Shown one piece after another: positions 9,784-25,620 of a DNA stretch of 27,800 bases (positions within the stretch are counted from its first letter, which is position 1; each line of letters starts with the position of its first letter). A program made the translations under genes and the position numbers. The notes below the pieces were generated by a model that saw nothing but the letters and a program-made list of their open reading frames with translations, was not told the DNA's origin and made no database searches. The stretch covers positions 1-27,800 of IMG/VR virus record IMGVR_UViG_3300035724_000020; one strand, written 5' to 3'. This DNA is from a virus.

Positions 9784-9969
9784 TTAGTAGGGCCAGATGG
9801 TCGCGCCGTCATCCCACACGGTGCCGCCGTCATCCCACACAGTCAGTGTGGTGATGACGCCCCGGTTGGGGCCGAAGGTCTGCCAGTAAGTGCGCAGTTT
9901 CTGTTGGGTGTCCGACGGCACCTTGGTGTCGTCTGCGACGTCGGGCGTGGGCGCGGGTGAATCGCTCAT
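9784..9969 (-). CDS. Small protein with duplicated TVWDDG motif
   Basis: This 61-aa protein begins at ATG 9969, which overlaps the previous stop by 4 nt (ATGA) and has GAAGGAA 8 nt upstream. The first 20 residues are Pro/Asp-rich. The last third reads TLTVWDDGGTVWDDGATIWP, in which the 7-residue unit TVWDDGG is tandemly duplicated with matching 21-bp spaced DNA repeats. Two stop codons in a row (TAATAA) follow. Short proteins with repeated WDDG units occur among phage head-to-tail genes. I do not know the function. Confidence 0.7.
   Translation of the reverse strand: MSDSPAPTPDVADDTKVPSDTQQKLRTYWQTFGPNRGVITTLTVWDDGGTVWDDGATIWPY
9805..9840. repeat. Two 15-bp direct repeats, 21 bp apart
   Basis: GCCGTCATCCCACAC occurs at 9805-9819 and 9826-9840. 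On the minus strand the 21-bp period encodes the duplicated TVWDDG units of the 61-aa protein. A short inverted repeat, CACAC...GTGTG, overlaps the second copy at 9836-9850. Confidence 0.8.
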
Positions 9970-10415
9970 GACTTGGTTCCTTCGATGAGAGGCGGCGCGT
10001 GATGCCCGGGTGCGGGCGGCGCACCGAGGAACGCCGAAGCCGGTTTCGGCGATTGCATGGTGACGATGACCTTGCACCAGTCGGGCCACGCCTCGGGCAC
10101 CATCGTCACCAGCCAGTGCGCGCCATTGAAGTTGAAGATGTCGCCACCGGTCTGCTCGGCACGCACGACCCCGGCCCAACTGCCGTTGAGGTAGACGTTT
10201 TTGCGGATGCCCTGGATGTTGATGCCGGCGTCGGCGAGCAGCTTGAGATCGTCGGTCGACAAATCCTGCACCTGCGCCGGGCCGCTAAGCCGATCGAAAT
10301 TTGGCGTGCGCGAGCCGTCGGGCGCGGTGTCGTAGCCGGTGGAGCGCAGGATTTCCACCTGGATGAACGGATTGACGATACCGATCGCGCCCGCGACCAT
10401 GCCGTGCAGGTTCAT
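9966..10415 (-). CDS. Conserved head-tail joining region protein
   Basis: This 149-aa protein starts MNLHGMVAGAIGIVNPFIQV, then has STGYDTAPDGSRTPNFDRL, LLADAGINIQGIRKNVYLNG and WLVTMVPEAWPDWCKVIVTM. The N-terminal MNLHG(I/M)VAGAIG.VNPF and the C-terminal 'E.WPDWCKV..T.Q' are conserved in a family found next to gp10-like and DUF4054 proteins in myophages. Its role is probably in head completion or the neck, but no biochemical function is known to me. ATG 10415 overlaps the upstream stop by 4 nt, and its own stop overlaps the next start by 4 nt. Confidence 0.75.
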   Translation of the reverse strand: MNLHGMVAGAIGIVNPFIQVEILRSTGYDTAPDGSRTPNFDRLSGPAQVQDLSTDDLKLLADAGINIQGIRKNVYLNGSWAGVVRAEQTGGDIFNFNGAHWLVTMVPEAWPDWCKVIVTMQSPKPASAFLGAPPAPGHHAPPLIEGTKS

Positions 10416-10888
10416 CCCCTGACCACCTCAAATGATACCGCGTTGAGCATGATCGCGTGCTCGATCAGCGGTTTGTCGAAGCCCTTTTTGTCGATCGTCG
10501 CCTGCGCCAGCGGCGGTGCCATCAGCGCGTTGATCGACTCCTTGATACGGCCCTGGATTTCCTGCCCGAGCACGTCGAGCGTGGCATCGACGTCGTTGTT
10601 GGCCTTCAGCAGTGCCGCCGCCATCGCCGGCCACTTGGCCGACTGCGCCGCGATCATGATGCGGAAGAACGGACGCGGCGGTTGGCGCCACGCCACCGGG
10701 CCATGCTCGCCTTCGCCCATCGTGCGGTAGACGCCGAACTCATTCCACGCCGCCACCTGCCCGACCGGAATGCCGGTCTCGGGATAGGTGGCACCCTTCA
10801 GGAACCCTACCTTCAGCGTGCGTGGTTCGTCGAACTGCTTGGCCAAATCCTCGAGTGCGGCGGGGTTGGTCCGGGTCAGCGCCGCCAC
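10412..10888 (-). CDS. HK97 gp10-like / minor virion morphogenesis protein
   Basis: This 158-aa protein probably helps complete the head-tail joint. It has TLKVGFLKGATYPETGIPVG, VAAWNEFGVYRTMGEGEHGP and PRPFFRIMIAAQSAKWPAM, then helical ALLKANNDVDATLDVLGQEI and GRIKESINALMAPPLAQATI. 'VA.wNEFG......pPRPFfR' is the signature of phage gp10-like completion proteins. The frame extends far upstream, but most of that lies within the DUF4054 gene. I chose GTG 10888, which overlaps the DUF4054 stop by 13 nt. No strong ribosome site is visible there, so the start is uncertain and coupling is likely. Confidence 0.75.
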   Translation of the reverse strand: MAALTRTNPAALEDLAKQFDEPRTLKVGFLKGATYPETGIPVGQVAAWNEFGVYRTMGEGEHGPVAWRQPPRPFFRIMIAAQSAKWPAMAAALLKANNDVDATLDVLGQEIQGRIKESINALMAPPLAQATIDKKGFDKPLIEHAIMLNAVSFEVVRG

Positions 10889-11412
10889 GGCGTCGGCACC
10901 AGCGGCGGTATCAGACCGCCGCCATACAGCGGTAGATACACCTCGGGGAACGGCTGCGGCCCGAGGAAGTAGCGGAAGGTGCGATACTGCGCCGTCGCCA
11001 CCCAATACATCGCGCCGTAGCGGGTCTGATAATACCACGCGGCATTCGGCCCGTCGCCCGATCCCATGTCGCCGAAGCTGACCGAGACCGAGCCTTCCGA
11101 GGCGGACTGGATACGCCCGACCACACCGGCCCCCTGCCCTGCCGCCACCTGCCCGCACGGATCGAGGCCGCCGTTCAGTGCCGCGATGTGCGCGGTCAGC
11201 ATGTCGAGATAGGTGGCGCGCGGCCCGGTCGGCGTCTGCGTCGAATCATACGGCACCGGGGAGCCTGCGGTGTTGTCGCAGAACACGCACGCGTCGTCGA
11301 AGAACCCCTGGGCGCGCGGCTGGGTGACGGCGCCGAACTCAGGGTAGCGCTGCATCCAGTGCTGATAGTCGAAGATGACGACGTGCGGGTCCGGCGTGAC
11401 CGTGACGCTCAT
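10876..11412 (-). CDS. DUF4054 head-tail connector protein
   Basis: This 178-aa protein is likely a head-completion connector placed under the portal. The N-terminal FDYQHWMQRYPEFGAVTQP and FFDDACVFCDNTAGSPVP, the central MLTAHIAALNG, and GRIQSASEGSVSVSFGDMG followed by WYYQTRYGAMYWVATAQYRT are the hallmarks of the DUF4054 family. ATG 11412 overlaps the previous stop by 4 nt. The C-terminal ~25 residues are Pro/Gly-rich. Confidence 0.87.
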   Translation of the reverse strand: MSVTVTPDPHVVIFDYQHWMQRYPEFGAVTQPRAQGFFDDACVFCDNTAGSPVPYDSTQTPTGPRATYLDMLTAHIAALNGGLDPCGQVAAGQGAGVVGRIQSASEGSVSVSFGDMGSGDGPNAAWYYQTRYGAMYWVATAQYRTFRYFLGPQPFPEVYLPLYGGGLIPPLVPTPWRR

Positions 11413-12990: not shown

Positions 12991-14034
12991 TTACACTCCC
13001 AGCATCTGCGAGAATGCCAGCGGATAGCGGATGATCGCGCCCCAGGTGCCGCCGGTTTTCTTCTGCGCGTAGCTCGACAGGCTGCGCACCAGCGCGTGGT
13101 CACGCGACTTCTCGTTGAAGCCGCAATAGCCGGTTTTCTTGCCATCGAACTCGCTGGCGATCAGTTGGATGACGTTGCCGGACACCGTCGCATAGCGCGG
13201 GTCGGACACGTATTCGATGTTCGGGAACGACTCCTTGATAAAGGCGCGGATGGTGATGCCGAAGCTGTTGATCGCGGTGAGCGCGCCAGCGACGGTGTTT
13301 GGGTAGACCAGCTTCATCGGCGTGTCCTGGGTGATGTAGCCCTGTGACACCGTCGCCAGTTGATTGAACAGCGACTGGAAATCCACATAGATTTCCTCGG
13401 CCGTCGCGTTCACCACACCGGCCGCGACCCACTTCACGCCGCCGGCCTGCTTGGTCGAGGGCGTCAGTGCCGCCGGCAACGACGGATCGTTGAGGATGCC
13501 GTAATTGAGCAGCCCCGAGATGCCGTTGTGATAGGTCAGATCGAGGAACTTATCGAGCGTCTTGGTGGCGCTCTGTTGTTTCTCGGAAACGAGTTCCAGC
13601 TTGGCGGCGCCGGCCCGCTCCACCTCCAGATCACCGTATTCGATGATTGTCTGGAACAGATACGCCTGCCGCTGTTCCCAGTTCTCGTTGACGTCCGAAC
13701 GGCCGACGGTGTTGTAGTCGCCATAGCTGCTGACTTCACCGACATTCTCGACCACCGGGATGAAGATCGTCTGATCGACCCACGTCCCTTTCTTCTGCTC
13801 GCCGAGGATTTCGCTGCCCTTGTTGGGGGCTTGCAGGATGCGCACCACCTCGGGATCGACCAACTGGGTGAAGAACGCCGGGATGCCGGCGTTCGGGGTG
13901 CTGATCAAGGCCGGCTGGGCGTCTTCCGCCAGTTGGAAATCGGGCGGCATCCAATCCATAGCGAACGGCATGACGATGCCCCATTCCCGCTCCAGGCGGG
14001 CGGCGTCGCGAGCGAAAGTGGGACTGCGGACCAT
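12991..14034 (-). CDS. Major capsid protein, DUF2184 family
   Basis: This 347-aa protein is the probable HK97-fold shell subunit. Conserved stretches are GIVMPFAMDWMPPDFQLAED, ALISTPNAGIPAFFTQLVDP, VENVGEVSSYGDYNTVGRSD, YLFQTIIEYGDLEVERAGAA and KLVYPNTVAGALTAINSFGI, ending GGTWGAIIRYPLAFSQMLGV. These fit DUF2184 major capsid proteins. ATG 14034 was chosen because TAGGAGA lies 9 nt upstream, and 20 extra in-frame codons further upstream lack family-like sequence. The order protease, cement, capsid supports the call. No separate N-terminal scaffold (delta) domain is evident. Confidence 0.9.
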   Translation of the reverse strand: MVRSPTFARDAARLEREWGIVMPFAMDWMPPDFQLAEDAQPALISTPNAGIPAFFTQLVDPEVVRILQAPNKGSEILGEQKKGTWVDQTIFIPVVENVGEVSSYGDYNTVGRSDVNENWEQRQAYLFQTIIEYGDLEVERAGAAKLELVSEKQQSATKTLDKFLDLTYHNGISGLLNYGILNDPSLPAALTPSTKQAGGVKWVAAGVVNATAEEIYVDFQSLFNQLATVSQGYITQDTPMKLVYPNTVAGALTAINSFGITIRAFIKESFPNIEYVSDPRYATVSGNVIQLIASEFDGKKTGYCGFNEKSRDHALVRSLSSYAQKKTGGTWGAIIRYPLAFSQMLGV

Positions 14035-14077
14035 GACGGTATCTCCTACTCGGTGGGTGGGGTGACGCGCGCGGTGC

Positions 14078-14593
14078 TCAGCCGAGCAGGCCACTGCTCA
14101 TCTTGATCAGTTCATTGGGACCGCCTGCGGTGGCGGCGATGAACTTGGTCTCGGTGAAGTTGGCAATGGTCGCGCCAGCGGCGGCGAATTGCGTGCCTGC
14201 ATTGTTGGTGTTGCCGGCGAACGCCTTCATGCCGACCACCACCGCGCCCGCGCCTTTGTTGCGCACCCAGAAATCACCGCTGGTGAACGCATTGCCGACC
14301 GGGAAGCCGGACGGGATGAAGAACGTCGCGCCACCGGGTGAGCCGGAACCATACATAAGGCCGTTGAATCCGGTCAGCACGTTAGCGATGAACGCACTCG
14401 GCAGCCCGGCCCCGGTTCCCGACAGCAGTGTGTTGGTCGCGTCGACCCAGGCGAACTGGGCAATGAACACGCCGCCCGCACCGGCCTTGAAGCCACCCTC
14501 CACCGAGAGCAGCGAGCGACGCGGGTTGGTCGACGCAAACTGACCATCGACGGCCAGCGCCTGAGTGATGTTGATAGCGGTTTGAAACGTCAT
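14078..14593 (-). CDS. Capsid cement/decoration protein, Gp24-like
   Basis: This 171-aa protein probably stabilises the mature capsid. It shows the pattern of phage structural cement proteins: AVDGQFASTNPRRSLLSVEG near the N-terminus, then GGVFIAQFAWVDA, SGFPVGNAFTSGDFWVRNKG, AVVVGMKAFAGNTNNAGTQF and a C-terminal FTETKFIAATAGGPNELIKM that returns to the AWV-like strand. It is placed between the protease and the capsid gene, as usual for this family. ATG 14593 follows the protease stop by 15 nt. Confidence 0.82.
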   Translation of the reverse strand: MTFQTAINITQALAVDGQFASTNPRRSLLSVEGGFKAGAGGVFIAQFAWVDATNTLLSGTGAGLPSAFIANVLTGFNGLMYGSGSPGGATFFIPSGFPVGNAFTSGDFWVRNKGAGAVVVGMKAFAGNTNNAGTQFAAAGATIANFTETKFIAATAGGPNELIKMSSGLLG

Positions 14594-14608: not shown

Positions 14609-16165
14609 TTAGTGCTTGACCAAGCGGTTGGCATTGGGGAACCGCTCCAGGTAATCCTTGTTGCCACTGGCATCCATCGCGTGATGCGGCATGCCGTTGC
14701 GCGGTTGCGGTTCACCGGGCTTGGGGATTTTGCCGAGCAACGCCTTGTAGGCGGACGGATGGATGTCTTTGACATCCTCGCCCATCTGCTCCAGCGCAAA
14801 CTTGTAAACCTCGGTGGCGCTGTCCATCGCCACCGCGATGTCACCGACCCACGGCCGCACGAAGGTCTTCGCAAGGTCGCGGGCGTTCAATCGTTCGGTG
14901 GTCTTGCTGATCGCATCGGTGACGGCTTTCTGAATGGCCGCGTCCATCGCGACCTTGGTGACCGGCGTCTTGTCCATCGCGGGGGTATCTCCATTCCTGG
15001 CGGTGTCGGGCTTGGGGATCACGCCATCCTCATCAGCGGCGCCGTCCAGTTTCTTGTCGTCGTTGCCGTCGCCGTTGTCGGCACTGCCGCCGTTGCTGTT
15101 GCCGTTGCCGTTGCCGTTGTCCGGCGGAGCGGCGGGTTTCAGTGCCTTCAGGATGATCGCCAACGTTTCGTCGTCGACCTTGCCGGCAAGCGCCGCCTGC
15201 ACGGTCGCAGCGACATCACCGCCGCCACCGCCGGCATTGGGATCGCCGTTGCCGTTGGCTGGATCGCTGCCCTCGGCGGCCGCACCGCCGACCGCGAGGC
15301 CGCCGCCACCGTTGGGGTCACCGCCGCCATTGGGATCGGCTGCCGGATCATCGGTCGGGGCCGCCGCGCCTGCGCTGCCGAGATGCTCATGGATGTGCAC
15401 CTCGGCGTCGTTCGCCATCTTGCCCTTGAGCGCACGCGTGAGCGCGGCCTCGATCTCGGGCCGCTTCTCGGTCCAGTTCTTCGCCGTGGTGCCGGCGAGG
15501 ATTTTCTTGAGGTCGGGCGGCTTCTGATCCTGCGCCATCTTCGGCGCGAGATAGGCGTGGGTCGAGCCGGCAATGAATGCCGCATAGGGCGACAGGCGCA
15601 TCATGATCTCCTTCGGTTTGCTGTCCATCACCACGACGTCGCTGCCGGCGCGCCCGTCCTGCACGAGTGCCACGTGATTGCCGATGATCTCCGTCATCAC
15701 GCCGTCGTATTGCTGACCCAGGTAGTTGCCGGGGGTCATCACCGGTGTGTAACGATATGCGCTGCTCAGTTCGCGCATCTGGCCGGTCTCGATCAGCGCG
15801 ATTGCGTGGCTCGACCAGAACACCAGCGAGTTGTCGAGGTAGGGCGCGCGCCATGTCGCGTCGGTGCCGGTGGAGCCGATCACCCGCTCGCGGTTTTCGT
15901 CCTGTGCAGTGACCGGAATGTGCTGGTCGAGGATTTTCAGGTTGTTGAAAGTGGCGGCTGCCTTCTGCAATTCCGCCGGATGGCGCAGCAACTGATACAT
16001 GCGATAGGGATCGAGACCGAGTTGCTGCCAGCCCGGTATTTCCCGGCCGTGGTAACCGTTCACGCATGCCTTGGTGATGTGGCTGACCGCGACATGCAGG
16101 TGACCGTCGCGGTCGTAGCTGCGCACCGAGCGATCGAGTGCCATCGTGATGGCGTCAAATGGCAT
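14609..16165 (-). CDS. DUF2213 prohead protease fused to scaffold region
   Basis: This 518-aa protein probably both scaffolds and matures the prohead. Residues 1-185 match DUF2213: VSHITKACVNGYHGREIPGW, ATFNNLKILDQHIPVTAQD, VIGSTGTDATWRAPYLDNSL, GQMRELSSAYRYTPVMTPG and GNHVALVQDGRAGSDVVV. By analogy with S78-like proteases, H82 and S134 or S135 are catalytic candidates; this is inference. Residues ~190-260 are helical and basic. Residues ~265-400 are Gly/Asn/Asp-rich low complexity. The C-terminal ~110 residues are helical (DAAIQKAVTDAISKTTERLN), typical of a scaffold core. ATG 16165 lies 33 nt after the previous stop. Confidence 0.87.
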   Translation of the reverse strand: MPFDAITMALDRSVRSYDRDGHLHVAVSHITKACVNGYHGREIPGWQQLGLDPYRMYQLLRHPAELQKAAATFNNLKILDQHIPVTAQDENRERVIGSTGTDATWRAPYLDNSLVFWSSHAIALIETGQMRELSSAYRYTPVMTPGNYLGQQYDGVMTEIIGNHVALVQDGRAGSDVVVMDSKPKEIMMRLSPYAAFIAGSTHAYLAPKMAQDQKPPDLKKILAGTTAKNWTEKRPEIEAALTRALKGKMANDAEVHIHEHLGSAGAAAPTDDPAADPNGGGDPNGGGGLAVGGAAAEGSDPANGNGDPNAGGGGGDVAATVQAALAGKVDDETLAIILKALKPAAPPDNGNGNGNSNGGSADNGDGNDDKKLDGAADEDGVIPKPDTARNGDTPAMDKTPVTKVAMDAAIQKAVTDAISKTTERLNARDLAKTFVRPWVGDIAVAMDSATEVYKFALEQMGEDVKDIHPSAYKALLGKIPKPGEPQPRNGMPHHAMDASGNKDYLERFPNANRLVKH

Positions 16166-16198: not shown

Positions 16199-16399
16199 TC
16201 ATTGCCAAAGCTTCGCCCTGACCGCGTTGTCCTTCGCCTCGACCAGCTTGCGCACCATCACGGTGCGTTCCGGGTTGCGCGGCAGCAGATCGACCATATC
16301 GTTGGCCAGCTTGGCGAACGGCTCGACGATCGACTTGAGATCGTCGCGCAGGTGCGCGGTGGCGAAGAACTGCAACAACGGCTCTTGATCGCTGGTCAT
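16199..16399 (-). CDS. Acb2/Tad1-hairpin-like small protein (candidate anti-CBASS)
   Basis: This 66-aa protein is almost wholly two helices. Residues 8-36 (LLQFFATAHLRDDLKSIVEP, FAKLANDMVDLL) are followed by the turn LPRNPERT (39-46) and the helix VRKLVEAKDNAVRAKL (49-64). 'hL...l..v..pF..LA..lv..LP.nPER...lRKLlEAKD.AVRA' is the pattern I recall for proteins of the Acb2/Tad1 hairpin family. Studied members bind cyclic nucleotides and block CBASS immunity. The start at ATG 16399 is 3 nt after the adaptor stop, with GGGGTG upstream. The gene call is firm; the anti-CBASS function is an inference by family resemblance and many small relatives are untested. Confidence 0.62.
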   Translation of the reverse strand: MTSDQEPLLQFFATAHLRDDLKSIVEPFAKLANDMVDLLPRNPERTVMVRKLVEAKDNAVRAKLWQ

Positions 16400-16402
16400 G
16401 GT

Positions 16403-16783
16403 TCACCCCAGAACTGGCGCGACCGTCATGGTGAGGTCACGAATGTATAGACGGCCCTGATAGGTGGTGTTCACCATCAAGGTCACCCAGTAGGGCACGC
16501 CGGCCGAGCCTTGCGGCGCGGTGAAGCCCACCGTGATGCGCAGACCAGACACGTCGAGCGAGTTGGGCCAGTTGGCACCGGCCAGCTTGAGATCGCTGGA
16601 TGTCATCGCTTCGTCGTCGACGCGCGCGATGGCGATGGTCACGGCGGTGATGTCGGGGATGCTGTCACCCACCACGCCGAGATCGGTCGAAACGTCGATA
16701 TAGCGCCCGTCGGTCTCGCCCGCGCGGAGCGGCGGGATCGGCACCGGGTTATAGTTGGGCGCGCTGCACGCATCGAAGCTCAT
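16403..16783 (-). CDS. Fibre-tail adaptor-like protein
   Basis: This 126-aa protein starts at ATG 16783, overlapping the stop of the giant gene by 4 nt. The body resembles short phage adaptor proteins: DLGVVGDSIPDITAVTIAIA, then LRITVGFTAPQGSAGVPYWV and TLMVNTTYQGRLYIRDLTMT. The pattern 'D.I....v.ia........(long loop)..v...ytvtl.v.Tt.GR..iRdl.l.V.p.l' suggests an immunoglobulin or fibronectin-like beta-sandwich. Coupling to the giant gene suggests that it attaches that protein to the virion. The name follows the family pattern I recall and is not proven. Confidence 0.68.
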   Translation of the reverse strand: MSFDACSAPNYNPVPIPPLRAGETDGRYIDVSTDLGVVGDSIPDITAVTIAIARVDDEAMTSSDLKLAGANWPNSLDVSGLRITVGFTAPQGSAGVPYWVTLMVNTTYQGRLYIRDLTMTVAPVLG

Positions 16784-19700
16784 ACCGTGACACTCCGTCG
16801 GGTGGGCGGCAGCGTCACGTCGCCGCCGGTCTGCGGCGGGATCGCCGCACCGCGTGGCGTCGGTGGCAGATAGACCCCGAGGGCCGCGACCCGCTCGCGC
16901 GGGATATGCGGATCGGTGCGGAGTCTACCGGCGCCATCGATCCGTGCCTCGGCATAGACCAGGGTATGCACCACCACCTGATCGCGGACCTGCCCGACGC
17001 CGGCAATATGGGCGCTGGCCAGCACCAGTCGATGCAGCGCCGCCCGCACCCGACCCAGCCCGATAATCCGCGCGCGGGCCGGGTGAGCGACATGGGCGAT
17101 TGCATGCACGGCACCGTGGCCGCCAATGCGCGCCCGTGCGCTGGCGTGGAACCACCCGGGGATCGGGAACTGCCGCAGCAACCCGTGACCATCGATCCGC
17201 GCGGCGGCATGGATCGCCTCATGCACATCGCTGTCGGCATGCACTGCGCCGAGACCGTGGATACGCGCCGAGGCATGGACGCTTTGCAGCACGTCGCTGA
17301 CCGCCGCCGCGAGGTGACCGCTGCCGGTGATGCGCGCCGAGGCGTGCACGTAATGACGCACCTGGGCGTTGGCATGAACGCCGCCGTGACCGGTGAGGAT
17401 AGCACCGGCCACGCGCGGCGCCTTGACGGCATCGGCCCTAACCAAACCTCTGCCGCCAACCCGGGCATCGGCGGGCGCGTGGATACTCCCACGAGCCACA
17501 GCGCGGCCGATGCCGGTAAGCACAGCCGCTATTACGGCATGCAGCCGGGCGCGGGTGACGCGGAGCGAGCCGGTGCCGTGGATTACCGCCGCCGCCGGAT
17601 GCGTCTGATGCACCTGGGTGGCGTTGGCCTGGACTCTACCGACACCGACGATGGCGGCGCCGTCGCGCACCTCGTGGGTGCCGTTGGCGTCGATGTAGCC
17701 CCGGCCGAAGATCACCGCGCCTGCCGGGATCACCCGGGCGCCCGTGGCGCGCACACTACCGACGCCGTTGAGCCGGCTGGCCGCCATGCGGGCCGCCACC
17801 GAGGCATGGGCGGCAACCCGCCCGGTGCCCACGATCGCCGCCTCGGCGAACTGCGCCGGACGGCCGTGGGTATCGAGGTCGCCCTCGCCGGCCAGCAACG
17901 CGGCGGCATCCCGCCGGGCCGTCGTGGTGGCCCTGAGTGCACCTGTCCCGTCGATCCGCGCCGCCGCCGGCACGGTGAAATGGCCCGAGGTCGCGGCGCG
18001 CACGCTGCCGGTGCCGGCGATCCGCGCGGTGGCCGCATGGATTTCGGCGCTGACCTTGGCGCGCAGCAGACCGATGCCGTGCAGCGTTGCCCGGGCGGCG
18101 AAGGCGAGGTGTGCGGTCATCCGCACGCGACCGGTGCCAGCGATCCGCGCCGCCGCCGGATGCGATTCCACCGCCGCTAGGCTGACGCCGCCGACGCCCC
18201 GGATACGGGCCGCAGCGGTGGCAATCACGGTGGCGCTCGCCGCGATATGCCCGACCGCGCCGATCGGCGCGACGCGCAGCACCCGGGCGCGCAGCGCCGG
18301 CATGGCGACGAACACCCCGCCGCGTCCCGCGATCAGCCCGGCGGCCGGGGTCTGCCCGAGATACAGCGCCGCCGCCTGCACGCCGCCTATGCCGTTGATG
18401 CGGGCGGCCGCCTCGCGGTTAGCCGTGATGGTGGCGAGCACCGCGCCGACGCCGTCGATCCGCGCGGCGATGAGATTGAGGCCGCCGCCGGCTGCCGCCA
18501 CGGCGCCGACGCCGTCGATCCGCGCGCTGGCCGGCACGATGGCGCCGAGCCGGATCGCCTGCGCCGCAAGCGTCCCGACGCCCGCAATGGTGGCGCTGGC
18601 AGGCCGCTGCACCAGGGCATCGACGCGCAGGCTGCCAACCCCCGCCAGTCGCGCCTGGGCGGGCGTGGCGCCCTGCACGGCGGCGCGCACGCTACCGGCG
18701 CCGTCGATCTCGGCAGCGGCCTGGGCGGGCACCGCAGCGGCGGCACGCACCGTCCCGAGACCATCGATCCGGGCGTTGGCCGGGCGTTGCACCAAACCGT
18801 CGGCGCGCAGCGCGCCGAGGCCGTCGATCCGGGCAGCGCCTTCATCCTCGCCGAGCGTATCGGCGGTGAGCGAACCCTGACCCGCGATGCGGGCCTGGGC
18901 GGGCAACAGAAGCTGGGCGGTGGCAGCGACGCCGGCATCACCGGTTATCCGGGCCACGCCGGCCCTGCGGGGCACGCTGTCGGCCGTGAGGCTGCCAGTG
19001 CCGGCGATCCCAGCCCCGGCCGGGAGCGCCGCCCTGGAGACCGCCGTGACGCCGCCTGTGCCGGCGATCAGCGCGGCCGCCTGCACCACCGCCGTGGCGA
19101 CGGTGAGCACGAAGCCCTCGCCGGGAATGACCTGTGAGCCGGACGGATGTTGTGCCAGACCGTCGGCGCGGACCTGACCGAGGCCCGCGATCAGCGCGGC
19201 GCCCAGCATTTGTGCAACAGCCGTTGCACGAATGGTGCCGACGCCGTCGATCTCGGCGAGCGCTTGGCGCAGTTGCGCCACCCGCTGGGCGTCCCCGGTG
19301 GGGAACCCCTCGCCATCGATCTCGGCAGACGCGCGCGCGCGCGCGGATGCCAACGCGACGAACGAACCGAGGCCGTCGATCCGACCGAGCGCCGGGCGCA
19401 GACCCATGCCGGGCGCGGTGATGAACCCCTCGCCGTCGATCTCGGCGAGACCCGCAACGCGCACGGTGGCGGTCGCAGACACCGAGCCGATGCCCGCGAC
19501 CGCTGCCGTGGCGCCCCGGGCAGGAACCGCATTGGCCCTGAGACTGCCCTGACCGTCGATCTCTAGCTGAGCAAGCTGCGCCCCGGTAGGCAGGATGTTG
19601 CAACTGCCGACGCCGTTGAGCCGCGCCGCCGCGAGCAGGATGGCGCCACCGATGGCACGCACTGTGCCGACGCCGTCAATCCGGGCCTGGGTCGGCCGCA

Positions 19701-22700
19701 GCGGCGTTGCGGTGGCGAGCACGAAGCCCTCGCCGTCGATCTCCAGCGTGATCAGCGCCCGGGTGGTGAGCGCCGGGATAACGAAGCCCTCGCCGTCGAT
19801 CTCGGCGGACGCGGCGCGTGCCGGTCTCGCATCGACCTGTAGCGAACCGAGACCGGCGATCCGCGCCTGGGCAGGCAACAAACGACCGGGCGAGGTGGTG
19901 ACGAAGCCCTCGCCGTCGATCTCGCCAGCGGCGGGCAACAGCAGTCGCGCGCCGGCATCGATGCCGCGCATCCACGGCCCGAATATGCCAGCTGGCGGCA
20001 GGATTAGCTGGGTGGCGAGTGCGCCCCATTCCTGTTGCAGCCCACCGATCCGCAACGTGAAATCGATCGCCAGCGAGCCTGCGTTGAAGAACGCGTAAAT
20101 GACCGGAACCATAAAAGCTCCGGTCGCGGATGAGGTCCACGACACCGCGAACCTTTGGGTGCCGAGCGTCACGCCGCCGGGTAAAGTGAACAGGACAGCG
20201 TTGCCACTAATATAGGTCTGGTCGCTGGCGCGATCCTGTTGAGAAAGCTGCACCCGGTTGACGTTGGTGAGGTCGCCTCCCACCAAGCGGCAATAGAGCG
20301 AGGATGTTGAGGTAAGACCGGGGAAGCTTTGCGGCTGATTGGGGCCGATAGCGCCTTCTGGCAGAATATAAGAATTTGCTGTCGCCGTTGATATACCATG
20401 CCAGCGGATATCGACGTAGGACAGCCCGTCCTCGACGCCGATGCTGACAACATCCCACGCCATCGGATCGCCACCAACCACCCAGAAGGTCGGACGCAAG
20501 CCACCCGATCCGACGACACCGACGACCGCGCCTTCCAGACGCGGGTTGCGGATGTAGTTGGTCTTGCCGCCGCCTTGGCCATCGATCTCGGCGGACGCGG
20601 CGACAAAGCGCGATGACACCGTGGCACGCACACCACCAACACCGTTGATCCGCGCGGCGGCCGCGCGCATCGGCTGGCCGTCAGCGGCGACACTCCCGAC
20701 GCCCGCGATGCGGGCCTGCGCCTGGGTGGCGAACGCCGACGGCGTCGCGGTGATAAAGCCCGCGCCGTCGATCTCGGCGGACGCCGGGCGCAACGGTGTG
20801 ACGTTGGCGCGCGGCGTGCCGACGCCGTCGATCTCGGCGGACGCGGCGCGGGTCGAGAACACCGTCGCGGCGAAACTACCAACCCCCGCGATCCGCGCGC
20901 TGGTCGGCACCCGGCCGAGCGGAGCGGGCACCACGAAGCCCTCGCCGTCGATCTCGGCGAGACCGCGCATGGTTTGCGTGGGCGCCGCCGCCAGCGTGTC
21001 AGGCACCGCTGCCCAGAGCGAGGTGTAAAACGATGTCGCGGTCGGATCGACCGGGCGGCAGACCATGCTGAACGTGCCGGCGCCGACCGGTGATGTCGGC
21101 AACTGATACGAAACCAGTTGCCACTGATTGGTCAGCGTGAGATCGGCGTATTGATCCGGCGTAAAGGGATAACTGAGGTTTGGATAAGCAAGCCCCTCGA
21201 CGGGGAAATGCAGTTCGCTGCCCGCCCAGCCGGCCGGCAGCCACACCCACACGTTGATCGTGTAGGGGATGTTCAGTGGTCCGGTGGTGTTGCCCAGCGC
21301 GCCGCAGTTGGTGGCGTTGGTGCTGTTGAACGCGGTGTGTTTGAACACCAGCGAATTGTCGCCAAATGGCGACGGAATGTCGGTCGAGACGACGCACGTA
21401 TTGGGCGTTTGTGGCCCTGGCGTTCCTCTCGCGTTGAGCCGGTTGCCTTCGCCGCCATTGATGACGGCGCGGGCGAATTGCAGGCCGCCACCGGTCGCGG
21501 AGACGAAGCCTTCGCCGTCGATCTCGGCTTGCGCGCCAGCCCGCACCACGGCGGTCGCCCGCACATTGCCGGCGCCACCGATCTGCCCTTGCGCGGTGGT
21601 GATTTTCGCCGCCGCCGCGCGCAGCGTGCCGACGCCGTTGATCTGGGCGAAATTCGCCACCGTCGGCATCGCCAGCAAGCCGCGTGTAAATGGGCCGAAA
21701 TTCGCCGCGCTCGGCACAGCCACCGGGGTGCACACCGAACCGGCTTCCAACTGAATGCCGGCGATGCGCAGGGTGAAATCGACCGCCGCACCCTGGGTGT
21801 AGCCGAACGCAATGACCGGCCAGACATACCGCGTATCCGGATACGCGGTCGGCATCGTTCGATTGGCCAAGAAGAACCGTTGCAGCGACGCGGTGGGTGT
21901 GAAGTTGATCTGCCCGGTGCCGGCGAGATTAACCCCGGTCGCACTGATGGCGTAGAGTATCTGCCCCATCGCCACGTTGCCGGCGGCAAGCGAGCCACCG
22001 ACCAGCGCCACATACATCGACATCGACCAGATCGCGCTGGGCTGGGTCGGGATCGCCGTGGTGAGATCGAGCCGAAGGGTATTACCGCTCGACGTTGGCG
22101 TCGCGTTGAAGCGGATGTCGACGTAGTTCAGCGTCTTGGCGTCGTCATCGGTGACGACGGTGCCGGTGCCGACCACGGTCCAACTGGCTGCCGTGTTGCC
22201 CGCCGACCAGTTGGTCGGCAGCGTGCTGGTGCCGACGACGCCACCGATGCCGTTCGGATTGGTCATCCAATTCGTAAAACCACCGATGCCATCGATGCGC
22301 GCCTGCGCCGCGACCAGCGTGGTGGGTTGCGCCAGCAACGCGCGCGTCGTTACTCCAGGCGAACCGAGCGGCGGCAGGATCGGCGGCGTGACAACCGGGT
22401 TGCTTTCGAACTGCGGCGCGGCGATCCGCAACGTGAGATCGATCGCGTTGCCGATGGTAAGTTGGAACCACAGCACCGGACATACGCGGCGGATCGTGGC
22501 GCCGACCGGGGTCACGCGGTTGCTGATCGAGAACCGCTGCAACGTCGCGGTCGGCGTGAATTGCGTTGAACCCGTGTTGGTAACAAGAGTGCCGGCCGTG
22601 GTGAGGTATAAAACGACCTGACCGACACTCAACAGATTGACGGTGGAACCACCAACCAGCGCCGCATGGACAGATTGCGACCAGCCATCACCTGAGAGAC

Positions 22701-25620
22701 CGGGAATTGATGTTGTGGTGGCAAGTCTGAGATAAATTCCGCCCGTCGCGGTGGGCGTGCCGGACAGCCGGATGTCGATGTAGGGCAACCCGCGATCAGG
22801 ATCGGCATTACCGGTCGCGACGACCTGCGTCGCGATGCCAAGCGTCGTGCTCCATGACCAGTTGGTGGGCGGCGTGCCCGGGGTGCCGACCACCGCGCCC
22901 TCGGCGTTCGGATTGTCGATCCAGTTGGTCATGCCGCCCTGACCACCGATGATCACGGAGACCACGGTGCTGTCCGGCGTGATGACGCGATCGGTGACCC
23001 GTGGCGTGCCGGGTGGTGGCAGCAACAGATCGGTGACGTTGGAGCCGTATTCGACCTGCGCGCCCGCGAGGCGGACAGTGAAATCGACCACCGAGCCGGG
23101 TGGATAGACGAACGCGAACACCGGCCAGACGAAGCCGGTCGCCGGATCGTTCGTTATGACATCGGCGTAATCGAAGAACCGCTGCAATGTTCCGGTGAGG
23201 GTGACCGGTATCCAGGGAACCGGCGCCGTGATAATCCCGCCGTTAATATCGTTGACATAGAGGCCATACTGGAACGTCACCTGCCCGCCGTTGGTCGAGC
23301 CACCGACCAGCGCGGCATAGATCGAGGTGGACCACGTATCGCCCGGGCTGGCGACAATACCGTTGTTGAGTTCAAGCCGGATGTTGTTGGAGTTTGTGGT
23401 GGCGGTGCCGAAGTAGCGGAAGTCAACGTAGTTCAGCCCGGTCGCAACATCGGTGCCGGTGCCGACGATCTGCCGCGACAGGCCGCCGACCAAGGTCGCG
23501 GTCCAATAGGTGGGCGCCGTGCCGGGGGTGCCAGGGATGGCGCCCTCGCCGCGCGGGTTGCGCACCAGATTGACCTGCCCGCCGCGCCCGTCGAGTTGCG
23601 CGCGGGCTTGCAGCGCGTAGACCATCGCGGGCGTCAGGACGCGATCGGTTGGCCCCATCGTGCCGTCCGGCGGCATCGACACGTCGGTGACCAGTCCGGC
23701 GAACTCCACCTGCGGCGCCGACAGCCGCAGCGTGTAATCCACCGGCTGGCCGGTGGTCACCAGCATCTGAACCGTCGGCCAGACGTGGCGGATGGTCGTT
23801 GTCCCAGTGAGCGTGAAGGGCGGCACCGCGAACCGCTGCATCACGTCGTTGATCGCGAGCGGATTGGTGGTGTAGCTGGGCGCGGTGACGATGGTGCCGG
23901 TCGCGTCGGTGGTATACAGCCCGAGCGTAAAGTTGACGACGTTGGTCAGATCACCGGCCGTGATCGCCGCATAGATCGATTGCGAGAACGTATCGCCCGG
24001 GTTGCAGTTGATACCAACCGAATTATCCCAGCGGATATTGCCGCCGCTGTTGCCGCCGCCAGTGGTCGCTGTGCCGGTGAAGCGGAACTCGACATAGGGC
24101 AGCCCGGTGGTGGCATCGACGCCGTAGTTGCAGCTTGATCGCGTCACCCCGGCCGGCGGCGCGGTTGACCAGTAAGTGGGCTGCGTGCCGGGTGAACCGG
24201 TGACGCCACCCAGCATCAGCGGATTGCGGATCAGGTTGACCTGATTGCCGACGCCGTTGATCTGCGCATAGGCCAGCTTGGTGGTCGCCGGATACGACAT
24301 CGGCGTCGCAACCAGCGGTGCGTTGGTCGTAGCGGGTGCGCCGACCGGTGGTAGGATGACAGGCGAGTTTGACGCTGCGCGTTCTAATTGCGGGGCGGCA
24401 ATACGGAACGTGACATTGATCGCAACGCCTGTCGTCGCGAATTGGATGTTGAACCTGGACTGCGCGGCGGTCGAGTTGACCAGTGATGCCCCGGTGAGGA
24501 AAAACCGTTGCAGCGCTCCGGTCAGTGACGGTCCAAAATTGACGCTTGCCGCAGACCCGCCACCCACCCATCCTATCTGGAAGTAGGTGCTGGTGATGTT
24601 GGCGAGACTGCCACCGACCAACGCGACAGAGACCGCCTGGGACCATTGATCGAACGGCGCGCTGGGCGCGTTGCCGTTGTCGAACCCCAGGATCAGAAAC
24701 GTCGCACCAACCGCCGTGGTGCCGGAATACTGGATATCGATATAGGGCAGCCCGGTCGCACCGTCGGTGCCGGTGCCGATGATGGTCTTGGTCAGTCCCG
24801 AGGTGTCGCTGACAAACCCCCAGCCCGTGCTCGGGAGCGCGCCGCCCGAACCGATGACACCAACCACCGCGCCTTCCGCGCGCGGGTTGCGGATATAGTT
24901 GGTCGGGCCACCACGCCCAGCGATGAGCGCCGCGCCGACTTTCCATGCCGCGAGCCATGTCGTGGGTTGCGCCAGCACGGCGCGATTAGAGACGCCGGGT
25001 GAACCCACGGGCGGCAGCATGATCGGTGTCGGGGCTGTCTCAAGCTCCAGTTGAATGCCCGCAAAACGGATCGTGAAATCCACCGTGCCGGTCGGGTAGG
25101 AATACTGGAACATCGGAAACGCAAAACGGGCATTCGCACTGGCAACGGTGCATGGCCCAGCGGTGAACCGTTGCAGCGTCGAGGTCAGGGTGACGTTCTG
25201 ATGTCCGACACCGCCGTCAGAGATCAGTGTGCCGTTAGCATCGGCGTCATAGAGGAACGGCTGGGTCGTGCTGGGAATCGCGCCAGCGACCACCGCCAGA
25301 TACATCGACAGTGACCACTGATCCCCGGCAATGGTGGGGACAAGGTTTGATGCCATGAAGCGGACGTTGTTGGTGCCAGCCGTGGTCGAACCGCTTACCC
25401 GAATGTCAATGTAAGTCAGTCCGGTCGTGACATCGACGCCGGTCCCAATCACCTCGGTGACACCGCTGGGGCCACCGACAAGGCCCATTACCCAGCCAGT
25501 GGGCAGTGCGCCACCTGAGCCGAGTATCCCGACAACCGCGCCCTCCATGCGCGGGTTGCGAATGTAGTTGGATTGACCACCCGTGCCATCGATACGCGCA
25601 GTGGCATTGACGATCGCCAT
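16780..25620 (-). CDS. Giant mosaic repeat protein, probable fibre/adhesin
   Basis: This 2946-aa protein is encoded by one uninterrupted frame of 8.8 kb, a third of the window. Residues 1-1310 hold six beta-sandwich modules of ~190 residues, each opening with an (I/W)RNP..EGAVVG-like line and ending in TLRIAAPQLE-like and PP.G.PGV lines. Residues ~1325-1390 and 1552-1685 hold short repeats, and 1395-1548 a divergent module. A seventh full module occupies 1688-1876. From 1898 to ~2900 there are only short repeats of consensus A-(R/E)-I-(D/A)-G-x-G-x-V-x-A at ~20-residue spacing. The tail is Pro-rich. No signal peptide, transmembrane segment, peptidase or lyase motif is visible. The modules resemble CBM-like domains of phage fibres, so host-glycan binding is likely. 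The adaptor gene follows with a 4-nt overlap. The start site lacks a strong ribosome site. Confidence 0.88.
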   Translation of the reverse strand: MAIVNATARIDGTGGQSNYIRNPRMEGAVVGILGSGGALPTGWVMGLVGGPSGVTEVIGTGVDVTTGLTYIDIRVSGSTTAGTNNVRFMASNLVPTIAGDQWSLSMYLAVVAGAIPSTTQPFLYDADANGTLISDGGVGHQNVTLTSTLQRFTAGPCTVASANARFAFPMFQYSYPTGTVDFTIRFAGIQLELETAPTPIMLPPVGSPGVSNRAVLAQPTTWLAAWKVGAALIAGRGGPTNYIRNPRAEGAVVGVIGSGGALPSTGWGFVSDTSGLTKTIIGTGTDGATGLPYIDIQYSGTTAVGATFLILGFDNGNAPSAPFDQWSQAVSVALVGGSLANITSTYFQIGWVGGGSAASVNFGPSLTGALQRFFLTGASLVNSTAAQSRFNIQFATTGVAINVTFRIAAPQLERAASNSPVILPPVGAPATTNAPLVATPMSYPATTKLAYAQINGVGNQVNLIRNPLMLGGVTGSPGTQPTYWSTAPPAGVTRSSCNYGVDATTGLPYVEFRFTGTATTGGGNSGGNIRWDNSVGINCNPGDTFSQSIYAAITAGDLTNVVNFTLGLYTTDATGTIVTAPSYTTNPLAINDVMQRFAVPPFTLTGTTTIRHVWPTVQMLVTTGQPVDYTLRLSAPQVEFAGLVTDVSMPPDGTMGPTDRVLTPAMVYALQARAQLDGRGGQVNLVRNPRGEGAIPGTPGTAPTYWTATLVGGLSRQIVGTGTDVATGLNYVDFRYFGTATTNSNNIRLELNNGIVASPGDTWSTSIYAALVGGSTNGGQVTFQYGLYVNDINGGIITAPVPWIPVTLTGTLQRFFDYADVITNDPATGFVWPVFAFVYPPGSVVDFTVRLAGAQVEYGSNVTDLLLPPPGTPRVTDRVITPDSTVVSVIIGGQGGMTNWIDNPNAEGAVVGTPGTPPTNWSWSTTLGIATQVVATGNADPDRGLPYIDIRLSGTPTATGGIYLRLATTTSIPGLSGDGWSQSVHAALVGGSTVNLLSVGQVVLYLTTAGTLVTNTGSTQFTPTATLQRFSISNRVTPVGATIRRVCPVLWFQLTIGNAIDLTLRIAAPQFESNPVVTPPILPPLGSPGVTTRALLAQPTTLVAAQARIDGIGGFTNWMTNPNGIGGVVGTSTLPTNWSAGNTAASWTVVGTGTVVTDDDAKTLNYVDIRFNATPTSSGNTLRLDLTTAIPTQPSAIWSMSMYVALVGGSLAAGNVAMGQILYAISATGVNLAGTGQINFTPTASLQRFFLANRTMPTAYPDTRYVWPVIAFGYTQGAAVDFTLRIAGIQLEAGSVCTPVAVPSAANFGPFTRGLLAMPTVANFAQINGVGTLRAAAAKITTAQGQIGGAGNVRATAVVRAGAQAEIDGEGFVSATGGGLQFARAVINGGEGNRLNARGTPGPQTPNTCVVSTDIPSPFGDNSLVFKHTAFNSTNATNCGALGNTTGPLNIPYTINVWVWLPAGWAGSELHFPVEGLAYPNLSYPFTPDQYADLTLTNQWQLVSYQLPTSPVGAGTFSMVCRPVDPTATSFYTSLWAAVPDTLAAAPTQTMRGLAEIDGEGFVVPAPLGRVPTSARIAGVGSFAATVFSTRAASAEIDGVGTPRANVTPLRPASAEIDGAGFITATPSAFATQAQARIAGVGSVAADGQPMRAAAARINGVGGVRATVSSRFVAASAEIDGQGGGKTNYIRNPRLEGAVVGVVGSGGLRPTFWVVGGDPMAWDVVSIGVEDGLSYVDIRWHGISTATANSYILPEGAIGPNQPQSFPGLTSTSSLYCRLVGGDLTNVNRVQLSQQDRASDQTYISGNAVLFTLPGGVTLGTQRFAVSWTSSATGAFMVPVIYAFFNAGSLAIDFTLRIGGLQQEWGALATQLILPPAGIFGPWMRGIDAGARLLLPAAGEIDGEGFVTTSPGRLLPAQARIAGLGSLQVDARPARAASAEIDGEGFVIPALTTRALITLEIDGEGFVLATATPLRPTQARIDGVGTVRAIGGAILLAAARLNGVGSCNILPTGAQLAQLEIDGQGSLRANAVPARGATAAVAGIGSVSATATVRVAGLAEIDGEGFITAPGMGLRPALGRIDGLGSFVALASARARASAEIDGEGFPTGDAQRVAQLRQALAEIDGVGTIRATAVAQMLGAALIAGLGQVRADGLAQHPSGSQVIPGEGFVLTVATAVVQAAALIAGTGGVTAVSRAALPAGAGIAGTGSLTADSVPRRAGVARITGDAGVAATAQLLLPAQARIAGQGSLTADTLGEDEGAARIDGLGALRADGLVQRPANARIDGLGTVRAAAAVPAQAAAEIDGAGSVRAAVQGATPAQARLAGVGSLRVDALVQRPASATIAGVGTLAAQAIRLGAIVPASARIDGVGAVAAAGGGLNLIAARIDGVGAVLATITANREAAARINGIGGVQAAALYLGQTPAAGLIAGRGGVFVAMPALRARVLRVAPIGAVGHIAASATVIATAAARIRGVGGVSLAAVESHPAAARIAGTGRVRMTAHLAFAARATLHGIGLLRAKVSAEIHAATARIAGTGSVRAATSGHFTVPAAARIDGTGALRATTTARRDAAALLAGEGDLDTHGRPAQFAEAAIVGTGRVAAHASVAARMAASRLNGVGSVRATGARVIPAGAVIFGRGYIDANGTHEVRDGAAIVGVGRVQANATQVHQTHPAAAVIHGTGSLRVTRARLHAVIAAVLTGIGRAVARGSIHAPADARVGGRGLVRADAVKAPRVAGAILTGHGGVHANAQVRHYVHASARITGSGHLAAAVSDVLQSVHASARIHGLGAVHADSDVHEAIHAAARIDGHGLLRQFPIPGWFHASARARIGGHGAVHAIAHVAHPARARIIGLGRVRAALHRLVLASAHIAGVGQVRDQVVVHTLVYAEARIDGAGRLRTDPHIPRERVAALGVYLPPTPRGAAIPPQTGGDVTLPPTRRSVTV
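16911..19929 (-). repeat. Short-repeat block C, ~49 tandem 60-bp units (residues 1898-2903)
   Basis: About 49 copies of A-(R/E)-I-(D/A/N)-G-x-G-x-(V/L)-x-A follow one another without other domains. Between ~19270 and 19929 the period is almost exactly 60 bp. Further along, units drift to 20-23 residues. The proximal units are of the AEIDGEGFV type, the middle ones ARIDGVGTVRA, and the distal ones are His-rich (ARIHGLGAVHA). The alternating I-x-G-x-G-x-V pattern suggests a beta-hairpin or solenoid strand pair per unit. Similar Gly-x-Gly-x-Leu-x-Ala repeats occur in minor tail proteins of other phages, as far as I recall. Confidence 0.82.
19993..20559 (-). repeat. CBM-like module 7, isolated inside the repeat tract (residues 1688-1876)
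   Basis: Begins NYIRNPRLEGAVVGVVGSGG after AEIDGQGGG. It has IGVEDGLSYVDIRWHGISTA, LYCRLVGGDLTNVNRVQL, TQRFAVSW and DFTLRIGGLQQEWG, and closes with LPPAGIFGP. It is flanked on both sides by short repeats. Its opening is closest to modules 1 and 2, about 4 kb away. Confidence 0.74.
20581..20967 (-). repeat. Short-repeat block B (residues 1552-1680)
   Basis: Seven copies: AEIDGEGFV, ARIAGVGSF, AEIDGVGTP, AEIDGAGFI, ARIAGVGSV, ARINGVGGV and AEIDGQGGG, the last leading into module 7. Spacing is 20-22 residues. The 20-nt DNA word encoding EIDGEGFV recurs exactly in block C. Confidence 0.78.
20977..21438 (-). repeat. Divergent module between short-repeat blocks (residues 1395-1548)
   Basis: Follows VINGGEGNRLNARGTPGP, a motif carrying one extra residue, and lacks the RNP..EGAVVG opening. 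It contains FGDNSLVFKHTAFNSTNATN, a strand-rich VWVWLPAGWAGSELHFPV and LTLTNQWQLVSYQLPTSP. This looks like another beta-sandwich, with a typical CBM 'vWv.lPagw' and 'W..vs..' pattern, but from a different subfamily. Confidence 0.6.
21451..21648 (-). repeat. Short-repeat block A (residues 1325-1390)
   Basis: Four copies of the short motif: AQINGVGTL, GQIGGAGNV, AEIDGEGFV and the distorted AVINGGEGN. They separate module 6 from the divergent module. Spacing is about 20 residues. Confidence 0.72.
21712..22272 (-). repeat. CBM-like module 6 (residues 1117-1303)
   Basis: Begins NWMTNPNGIGGVVGTSTLPT after the motif ARIDGIGG. It contains LNYVDIRFNATPTSSG, WSMSMYVALVGGS, SLQRFF, YVWPVIAFGYTQGAAV and DFTLRIAGIQLEAG. 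The close lacks the PPxG line seen in the other modules. This is the last module of the N-terminal array. Confidence 0.72.
22363..22929 (-). repeat. CBM-like module 5 (residues 898-1086)
   Basis: Begins NWIDNPNAEGAVVGTPGTPP after VIIGGQGG, the most divergent of the preceding motifs. It contains DRGLPYIDIRLSGTPTATGG, WSQSVHAALVGGS, TLQRF and DLTLRIAAPQFE, and closes with LPPLGSPGV. Confidence 0.72.
23011..23571 (-). repeat. CBM-like module 4 (residues 684-870)
   Basis: Begins NLVRNPRGEGAIPGTPGTAP after the motif AQLDGRGG. It contains IVGTGTDVATGLNYVDFRYF, WSTSIYAALVGGS, TLQRFF, VWPVFAFVYPPGS and DFTVRLAGAQVEYG, and closes with LPPPGTPRV. Confidence 0.74.
23671..24237 (-). repeat. CBM-like module 3 (residues 462-650)
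   Basis: Begins NLIRNPLMLGGVTGSPGTQP after the motif AQINGVGN. It contains YGVDATTGLPYVEFRFTGTA, FSQSIYAAITAGDL, VMQRF and DYTLRLSAPQVEF. The opening is the GTPGT.PTYW subtype rather than the GSGG subtype of modules 1, 2 and 7. Confidence 0.72.
24337..24900 (-). repeat. CBM-like module 2 (residues 241-428)
   Basis: Begins NYIRNPRAEGAVVGVIGSGG after the motif ALIAGRGG. It shares IIGTGTDGATGLPYIDIQYS, WSQAVSVALVGGS, ALQRF and VTFRIAAPQLE with module 1, and is close to modules 1 and 7 in its opening line. Its closing line is LPPVGAPAT. Confidence 0.75.
24997..25569 (-). repeat. CBM-like module 1 of the giant protein (residues 18-208)
   Basis: Opens with NYIRNPRMEGAVVGILGSGG directly after the motif ARIDGTGG. 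It contains VIGTGVDVTTGLTYIDIRVS, a core near WSLSMYLAVVAGA, a TLQRF strand and DFTIRFAGIQLELE, and ends LPPVGSPGV. The all-beta pattern and the closing 'DFT(L/I)R.A..QLE' line are typical of carbohydrate-binding-like jelly rolls in phage fibres. Confidence 0.75.

Follow-up and report, generated by a model that had tools for sequence, protein, structure and literature searches.

Phage proteins of the Acb2 type assemble into homohexamers, bind cyclic oligonucleotides and inhibit CBASS. The published protomer consists of a short helix and two long antiparallel helices (PMC10419184), and in T4 Acb2 the residues Y8 and F82 belong to the cyclic-dinucleotide pocket, F82 stacking on the base (PMC12657218). 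As its name tells, the Pfam family PF24729 (Acb2_Tad1_hairpin) groups with Acb2 the C-terminal two-helix hairpin of Tad1, a protein that has an N-terminal beta domain (PMC12043709). Its mycobacteriophage/actinophage branch is represented by gp101 of Mycobacterium phage StellaBean and by Acb2 homolog 43 (PDB 9ptq). The phage relatives of 9ptq carrying LPxGREK...TKLEEAMFWANAAIAR are referred to below as the GREK branch. They pass PF24729 at 5e-16 to 1e-21, and one of them is annotated ‘cyclic nucleotide sequestering protein’.

The window, that is the whole stretch of DNA analysed here, is an entire viral record of 27.8 kb. Its late region is of the contractile-tail type, with Pfam matches for the major capsid, minor capsid, DUF2213 protease, DUF3383, baseplate hub and tail lysozyme. 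The gene of interest, p66, encodes MTSDQEPLLQFFATAHLRDDLKSIVEPFAKLANDMVDLLPRNPERTVMVRKLVEAKDNAVRAKLWQ. The 66-aa open reading frame of the original prediction is thus real, with the translation as quoted and both quoted motifs present. Its ATG is 3 bases past the stop of the preceding gene in a tightly packed late operon, 33 bases separate its stop from the start of the DUF2213 gene, and the surrounding DNA has no local repeats that would mark an insertion. The neighbours had been named fibre adaptor and prohead protease. The latter name agrees with the DUF2213 domain and with a homologue in Aeromonas phage 4_D05 annotated as head maturation protease; the former found no backing, the product of the 126-aa gene matching nothing in Pfam or among 50,697 phage records. 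Further upstream on the minus strand (16780–25620) lies one ORF of 2946 aa, whose C-terminal part is made up of short degenerate repeats (AxIxGxG / ARIDGVG), dozens in all; it encodes a putative fibre or surface protein.

Table 1. Position of p66, of its predicted structural elements and of neighbouring genes in the window.
Feature	Position	Strand	Basis
p66, 66-aa Acb2/Tad1-hairpin-like gene	16199..16399	-	ORF and translation, 301 phage records, homology to a PF24729 branch
Short N-terminal helix, residues 7-12, with invariant QFF (10-12)	16364..16381	-	AlphaFold2, conservation
First long helix, residues 19-38	16286..16345	-	AlphaFold2
Hairpin turn LPRNPER, residues 39-45, aligned with LPxGREK of the sequestering-protein branch	16265..16285	-	AlphaFold2, hhalign
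Second long helix, residues 43-64, with invariant R50, K56, D57, R61	16208..16273	-	AlphaFold2, conservation
126-aa gene immediately upstream of p66, same operon	16403..16783	-	ORF
DUF2213 gene downstream of p66 (prohead protease, possibly with scaffold)	14609..16165	-	PF09979, E 1.3e-44
Minor capsid protein, XM1 gp53-like	14078..14593	-	PF23982
Major capsid protein	12991..14094	-	PF09950
Two abutting genes (10412-11158 and 9966-10415)	9966..11158	-	Homologues flank p66 in the nearest relative, G001

Relatives of p66 were detected by tblastn in 301 phage records, with at least 80% of the protein covered in 299. Profile scans added at least 560 loci of the family in IMG/VR and 193 in GTDB genomes, the latter from Alphaproteobacteria, Gammaproteobacteria, Actinobacteria, Bacteroidota, Planctomycetes and others. 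Between p66 and its nearest relative, 13, 7 and 23 differences fall at codon positions 1, 2 and 3 (dN 0.18, dS 0.70), a comparison which indicates that the gene is under purifying selection. Given the 301 records and this distribution of differences, p66 is a conserved protein and no chance ORF. The annotation of the relatives is, with few exceptions, ‘hypothetical protein’. The window protein matched PHROG 1761 (E 3.6e-17) and PHROG 5120 (E 6.4e-14), both devoid of an assigned function, and matches to PHROG 1761/5120 were obtained for 12/12 relatives scanned; compared with p66, the profile of PHROG 1761 is longer by about 76 positions at its N terminus. A text search of the paper library consulted found no paper with motifs of the family. 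The domain also forms the C-terminal part of larger proteins (L095 3977–4405, from Erwinia phage Alexandra_26, L046, L076 and L063), where the segments ahead of it are P-loop-like (GPVGVGKS), CxxC-containing, or other short N-terminal ones.

An AlphaFold2 model of p66, made with 58 sequences, reached a pLDDT of 92.5 and consists of a short helix and two long antiparallel helices, the same layout as the published Acb2 protomer (PMC10419184). The helical hairpin that had been proposed from the sequence therefore holds. Thirteen positions are invariant in the 58-sequence alignment (Q10, F11, F12, H16, L17, F28, A32, P40, R50, L52, K56, D57, R61), and many of them are polar, which suggests that they serve a specific ligand or interface. 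When p66 is set against T4 Acb2 in a register chosen by eye, R61 would coincide with R79, and L64 and its neighbour W65 would come close to F82; the F82 equivalent then reads L64. Aromatic residues are present near both ends of p66 (F11, F12, W65), their exact match to T4 Y8 and F82 being ambiguous. The strongly conserved T44, W52 and N54 of the GREK branch are not kept in p66, again by an eye-set register. Searched with Foldseek against BFVD, the model listed, beyond its own family, ‘Acb2/Tad1 hairpin domain-containing’ proteins at a probability of 0.99–1.0. Foldseek against the PDB and VIA-align returned generic helical proteins, with Acb2 absent from the lists; for VIA-align these were many unrelated proteins at Z 4–7. 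As a control, a model of a GREK-branch protein had as best PDB match T4 Vs.4 (Acb2) with cGAMP (probability 0.92; VIA Z 7.3, rmsd 2.2 over 59 residues), and it also found PaP2 Acb2 among solved structures. Either the p66 structure has diverged further, or Foldseek catches it poorly, and this limits the structural claim.

Sequence searches with published models gave little. The HMM search with PF24729, proposed earlier as a check, gave no match of the window protein at any reported threshold, and a single diverse relative (L012) reached 14.1 bits (E 0.057), below the curated cut-off of 27 bits. Scans of p66 and its relatives with Pfam, NCBIfam and PADLOC returned nothing useful. When p66 was compared with the PDB by phmmer, the first entry was 9ptq, ‘Acb2 homolog 43’ (6 chains), at E 0.0049 and ungapped over residues 18–62; this 45-residue stretch of the 9ptq match passes PF24729. 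The proposed Pfam test alone would wrongly reject p66; family profiles do connect it with PF24729 members.

Early hhalign comparisons with small profiles were too weak, and deeper profiles resolved the match. Aligned with the GREK branch, the deep p66-family profile gave a probability of 85–90%, P values of 6e-6 to 1.5e-6 and scores of 33.7 to 36.8, to be compared with shuffled-column maxima of 19.4 (200 shuffles) for the lower score and 18.5 (100 shuffles) for the best run (probability 90%, P 1.5e-6). A reversed-profile control scored 10.3. A GREK HMM was then run at E<=10 on 14,757 ORFs from p66 loci: it matched 156/178 p66 ORFs versus 17/14,579 others, at least two of these 17 being other hairpin genes, and the reversed HMM matched none of the p66 ORFs in the same set. 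Reciprocally, the p66 HMM matched GREK proteins (best E 1.1e-5); the window protein itself scored just 8.8 bits with the GREK HMM. The canonical p26/T4 Acb2 profile had no direct hhalign match to the p66 family. This is uninformative, since even for the accepted GREK branch the score with p26 is no higher than 14.3, and by this measure p66 appears nearer to GREK than GREK to p26. Judged from these profile-profile and reciprocal HMM tests, and by way of the GREK branch, the p66 family belongs to the Acb2/Tad1 hairpin superfamily, as a branch that is divergent and uncharacterised. The resemblance first proposed stands at that level; it does not extend to a PF24729 match or to a direct match with the p26/T4 Acb2 profile. 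In one locus (L027 2690–3001), the gene directly upstream of p66 carries AAAKLEELFFWIRAGMARG near its end and matches the GREK HMM at E 0.0037; it is perhaps another hairpin-type family.

Neighbourhoods of the homologues were then inspected. The families most often met in a set of 121 flanking ORFs were the large (phrog_2 in 11, others in 2–4) and small (4 and 2) terminase subunits, followed by head, portal, connector and head-protease genes. The homologue lies between tail and lysin genes in Gordonia phage Widow, between lysin genes in Gordonia phage Jumbo, between a gp27-like and a portal-annotated gene in Vibrio phage martha, and after a head morphogenesis gene in Acinetobacter phage Ab105-2phi. 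Other settings are non-structural regions: the side of dNMP kinase and nucleotide pyrophosphohydrolase genes in Ruegeria phage RpAliso, the right genome end in mycobacteriophage Nazo and, for another relative, the vicinity of a tRNA gene. Since relatives often flank terminase, portal, head or lysis genes, and since the canonical acb2 of PaMx41 adjoins a structural gene, the late position of p66 is common rather than exceptional, which weakens the weight that the original prediction had given to it. A conserved partner gene was considered as a clue to function and dropped, no neighbour being recurrent (the largest neighbour cluster was 6/289). Habitual pairing with a second hairpin gene was likewise dropped (2 of about 180 loci scanned). 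The two cases are a different hairpin gene about 2.3 kb from the p66 homologue (L003 6450–6662), just under the PF24729 cut-off, and one about 0.2 kb away (L022 2604–2825), which passes it (34.5 bits). In the IMG/VR and phage loci, the queuosine biosynthesis genes QueC and QueD were each twice a direct neighbour.

The nearest relative, G001, has a p66 78% identical to that of the window and the same head-tail module (DUF2213 61%, capsid 82–86%). Two genes that adjoin each other in the window (Table 1) have homologues in G001, and the sole p66 of G001 is placed cleanly between these, several kilobases further on. Such a shift within a conserved operon suggests a movable accessory cargo rather than a fixed virion component, and the observations fit accessory cargo rather than a part of the virion. 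The place that p66 has in the window, upstream of DUF2213, is held in G001 by a gene for a small Gly/Tyr-rich membrane protein (MSPL...GGYGYRYGG...; L357 8288–8464); such a gene also adjoins p66 in L022 (2816–2995).

What might p66 do? We consider it somewhat probable that it is a sponge of immune signals, a role that would include an oligomer, a ligand and an anti-defence activity. On this reading the late operon carries, as accessory cargo, a free-standing and divergent representative of the hairpin superfamily. Protomers made of the short N-terminal helix and the antiparallel hairpin would come together as a small oligomer, with six copies the probable number by analogy with Acb2, and the pockets formed between them may take up an immune signal that is a cyclic nucleotide or a related molecule. 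Candidate pocket residues are the aromatics near both ends (F11/F12, W/Y65) and the charged R50, K56, D57 and R61 of the second helix. With the signal sequestered, effectors of the CBASS or Thoeris type would stay inactive. The capsid is a known trigger of defence: Sau-Thoeris senses the major head protein and then makes gcADPR (PMC11312562), and acb2-deletion phages escaping CBASS carry a major-capsid mutation (PMC10419184). A sponge made together with the capsid would thus be timed to the signal, and present where and when capsid-triggered defences produce it.

The Acb2 likeness could be a generic resemblance between helical hairpins, with no kinship. The lack of a match with PF24729 or with the p26 profile would agree with this, as would the unrelated proteins listed by VIA-align. 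We regard it as highly improbable, as the null tests speak against it: the profile score is about twice the shuffled maximum, the reversed and p26 controls are near zero, and the 156/178 versus 17/14,579 matches all lie in one register. If the kinship is accepted, p66 may descend from the hairpin and now serve the virus itself, for example as a packaging or head-assembly accessory docking on terminase or portal. The prevalence of terminase, head, portal, connector and head-protease genes among the 121 flanking ORFs favours such a role, together with the position of p66 between a gene of no known family and the prohead protease and the fact that canonical pocket residues are not clearly kept. 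We nevertheless find it unlikely, because the family occurs in unrelated settings (nucleotide metabolism, lysis/tail, genome right end, near a tRNA gene), is also fused to other N-terminal domains, has no recurrent partner and shifts position inside a conserved operon.

A further alternative keeps the signal-binding oligomer and places it outside CBASS and Thoeris, the ligand being a host second messenger (c-di-GMP, c-di-AMP, ppGpp) or belonging to phage nucleotide metabolism. The near-invariant polar Q10, H16, R50, K56, D57 and R61 suggest a specific ligand, and nucleotide-metabolism genes adjoin the family member of RpAliso. However, the hairpin members of tested function in the cited papers bind immune signals (PMC12043709, PMC12657218) and most neighbours of p66 are not metabolic, so that we judge this alternative quite unlikely.

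Returning to the sponge of immune signals, a wider and more doubtful proposal, put forward tentatively, is that few phage sponge families may be as widespread as the PHROG 1761/5120 type, which would have an altered ligand pocket, ride in packaging and head operons, be made with the capsid that triggers signalling defences, and have been overlooked because Pfam misses it. Carriers of the family number in the hundreds, among phages and prophages whose hosts span several bacterial phyla. If it binds immune signals, sponge-type counter-defence would be far commoner than annotated, and a new pocket chemistry would be accessible in a protein of 66 aa; the late placement leads to the timing hypothesis, in which sponges are co-made with the capsid where the capsid is the trigger.

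Compared with Tad1, the 66-aa protein lacks the N-terminal beta domain, so that it does not qualify as a Tad1, a gcADPR-binding protein in which that domain precedes the hairpin. Nor is a domain of the Tad1 kind claimed for the family, because a phmmer search of the PDB with a member having an N-terminal extension (L076) did not find Tad1. Like the p66 model, canonical Acb2 (p26 of Pseudomonas phages PaP2/PaMx33, Vs.4 of T4) has a short N-terminal helix and two long antiparallel helices; a second helix of the LxEAxxxAxRA kind, judged by eye, is common to p66 and T4 Acb2, and the late-region placement to p66 and PaMx41 acb2. In contrast, canonical Acb2 has about 74–94 aa versus 66, and, by the eye-set register, the base-stacking F82 of T4 appears not to be conserved in p66. 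With the GREK branch p66 shares the hairpin, an aromatic-H-P start, a similar length (60–70 aa) and the register, LPxGREK then xALTKLEEA corresponding to LPRNPER then xALRKLLEA. It has neither the W nor the N of GREK's FWANAAIAR, its link before helix 1 is 4–6 residues shorter, and its family has an invariant set of its own (QFF, HL, RKLLEAKDxxVRA) that is not that of GREK. The Acb2/Tad1 hairpin is of a known kind; what is new is the p66 branch, uncharacterised and with almost all of its members unnamed.
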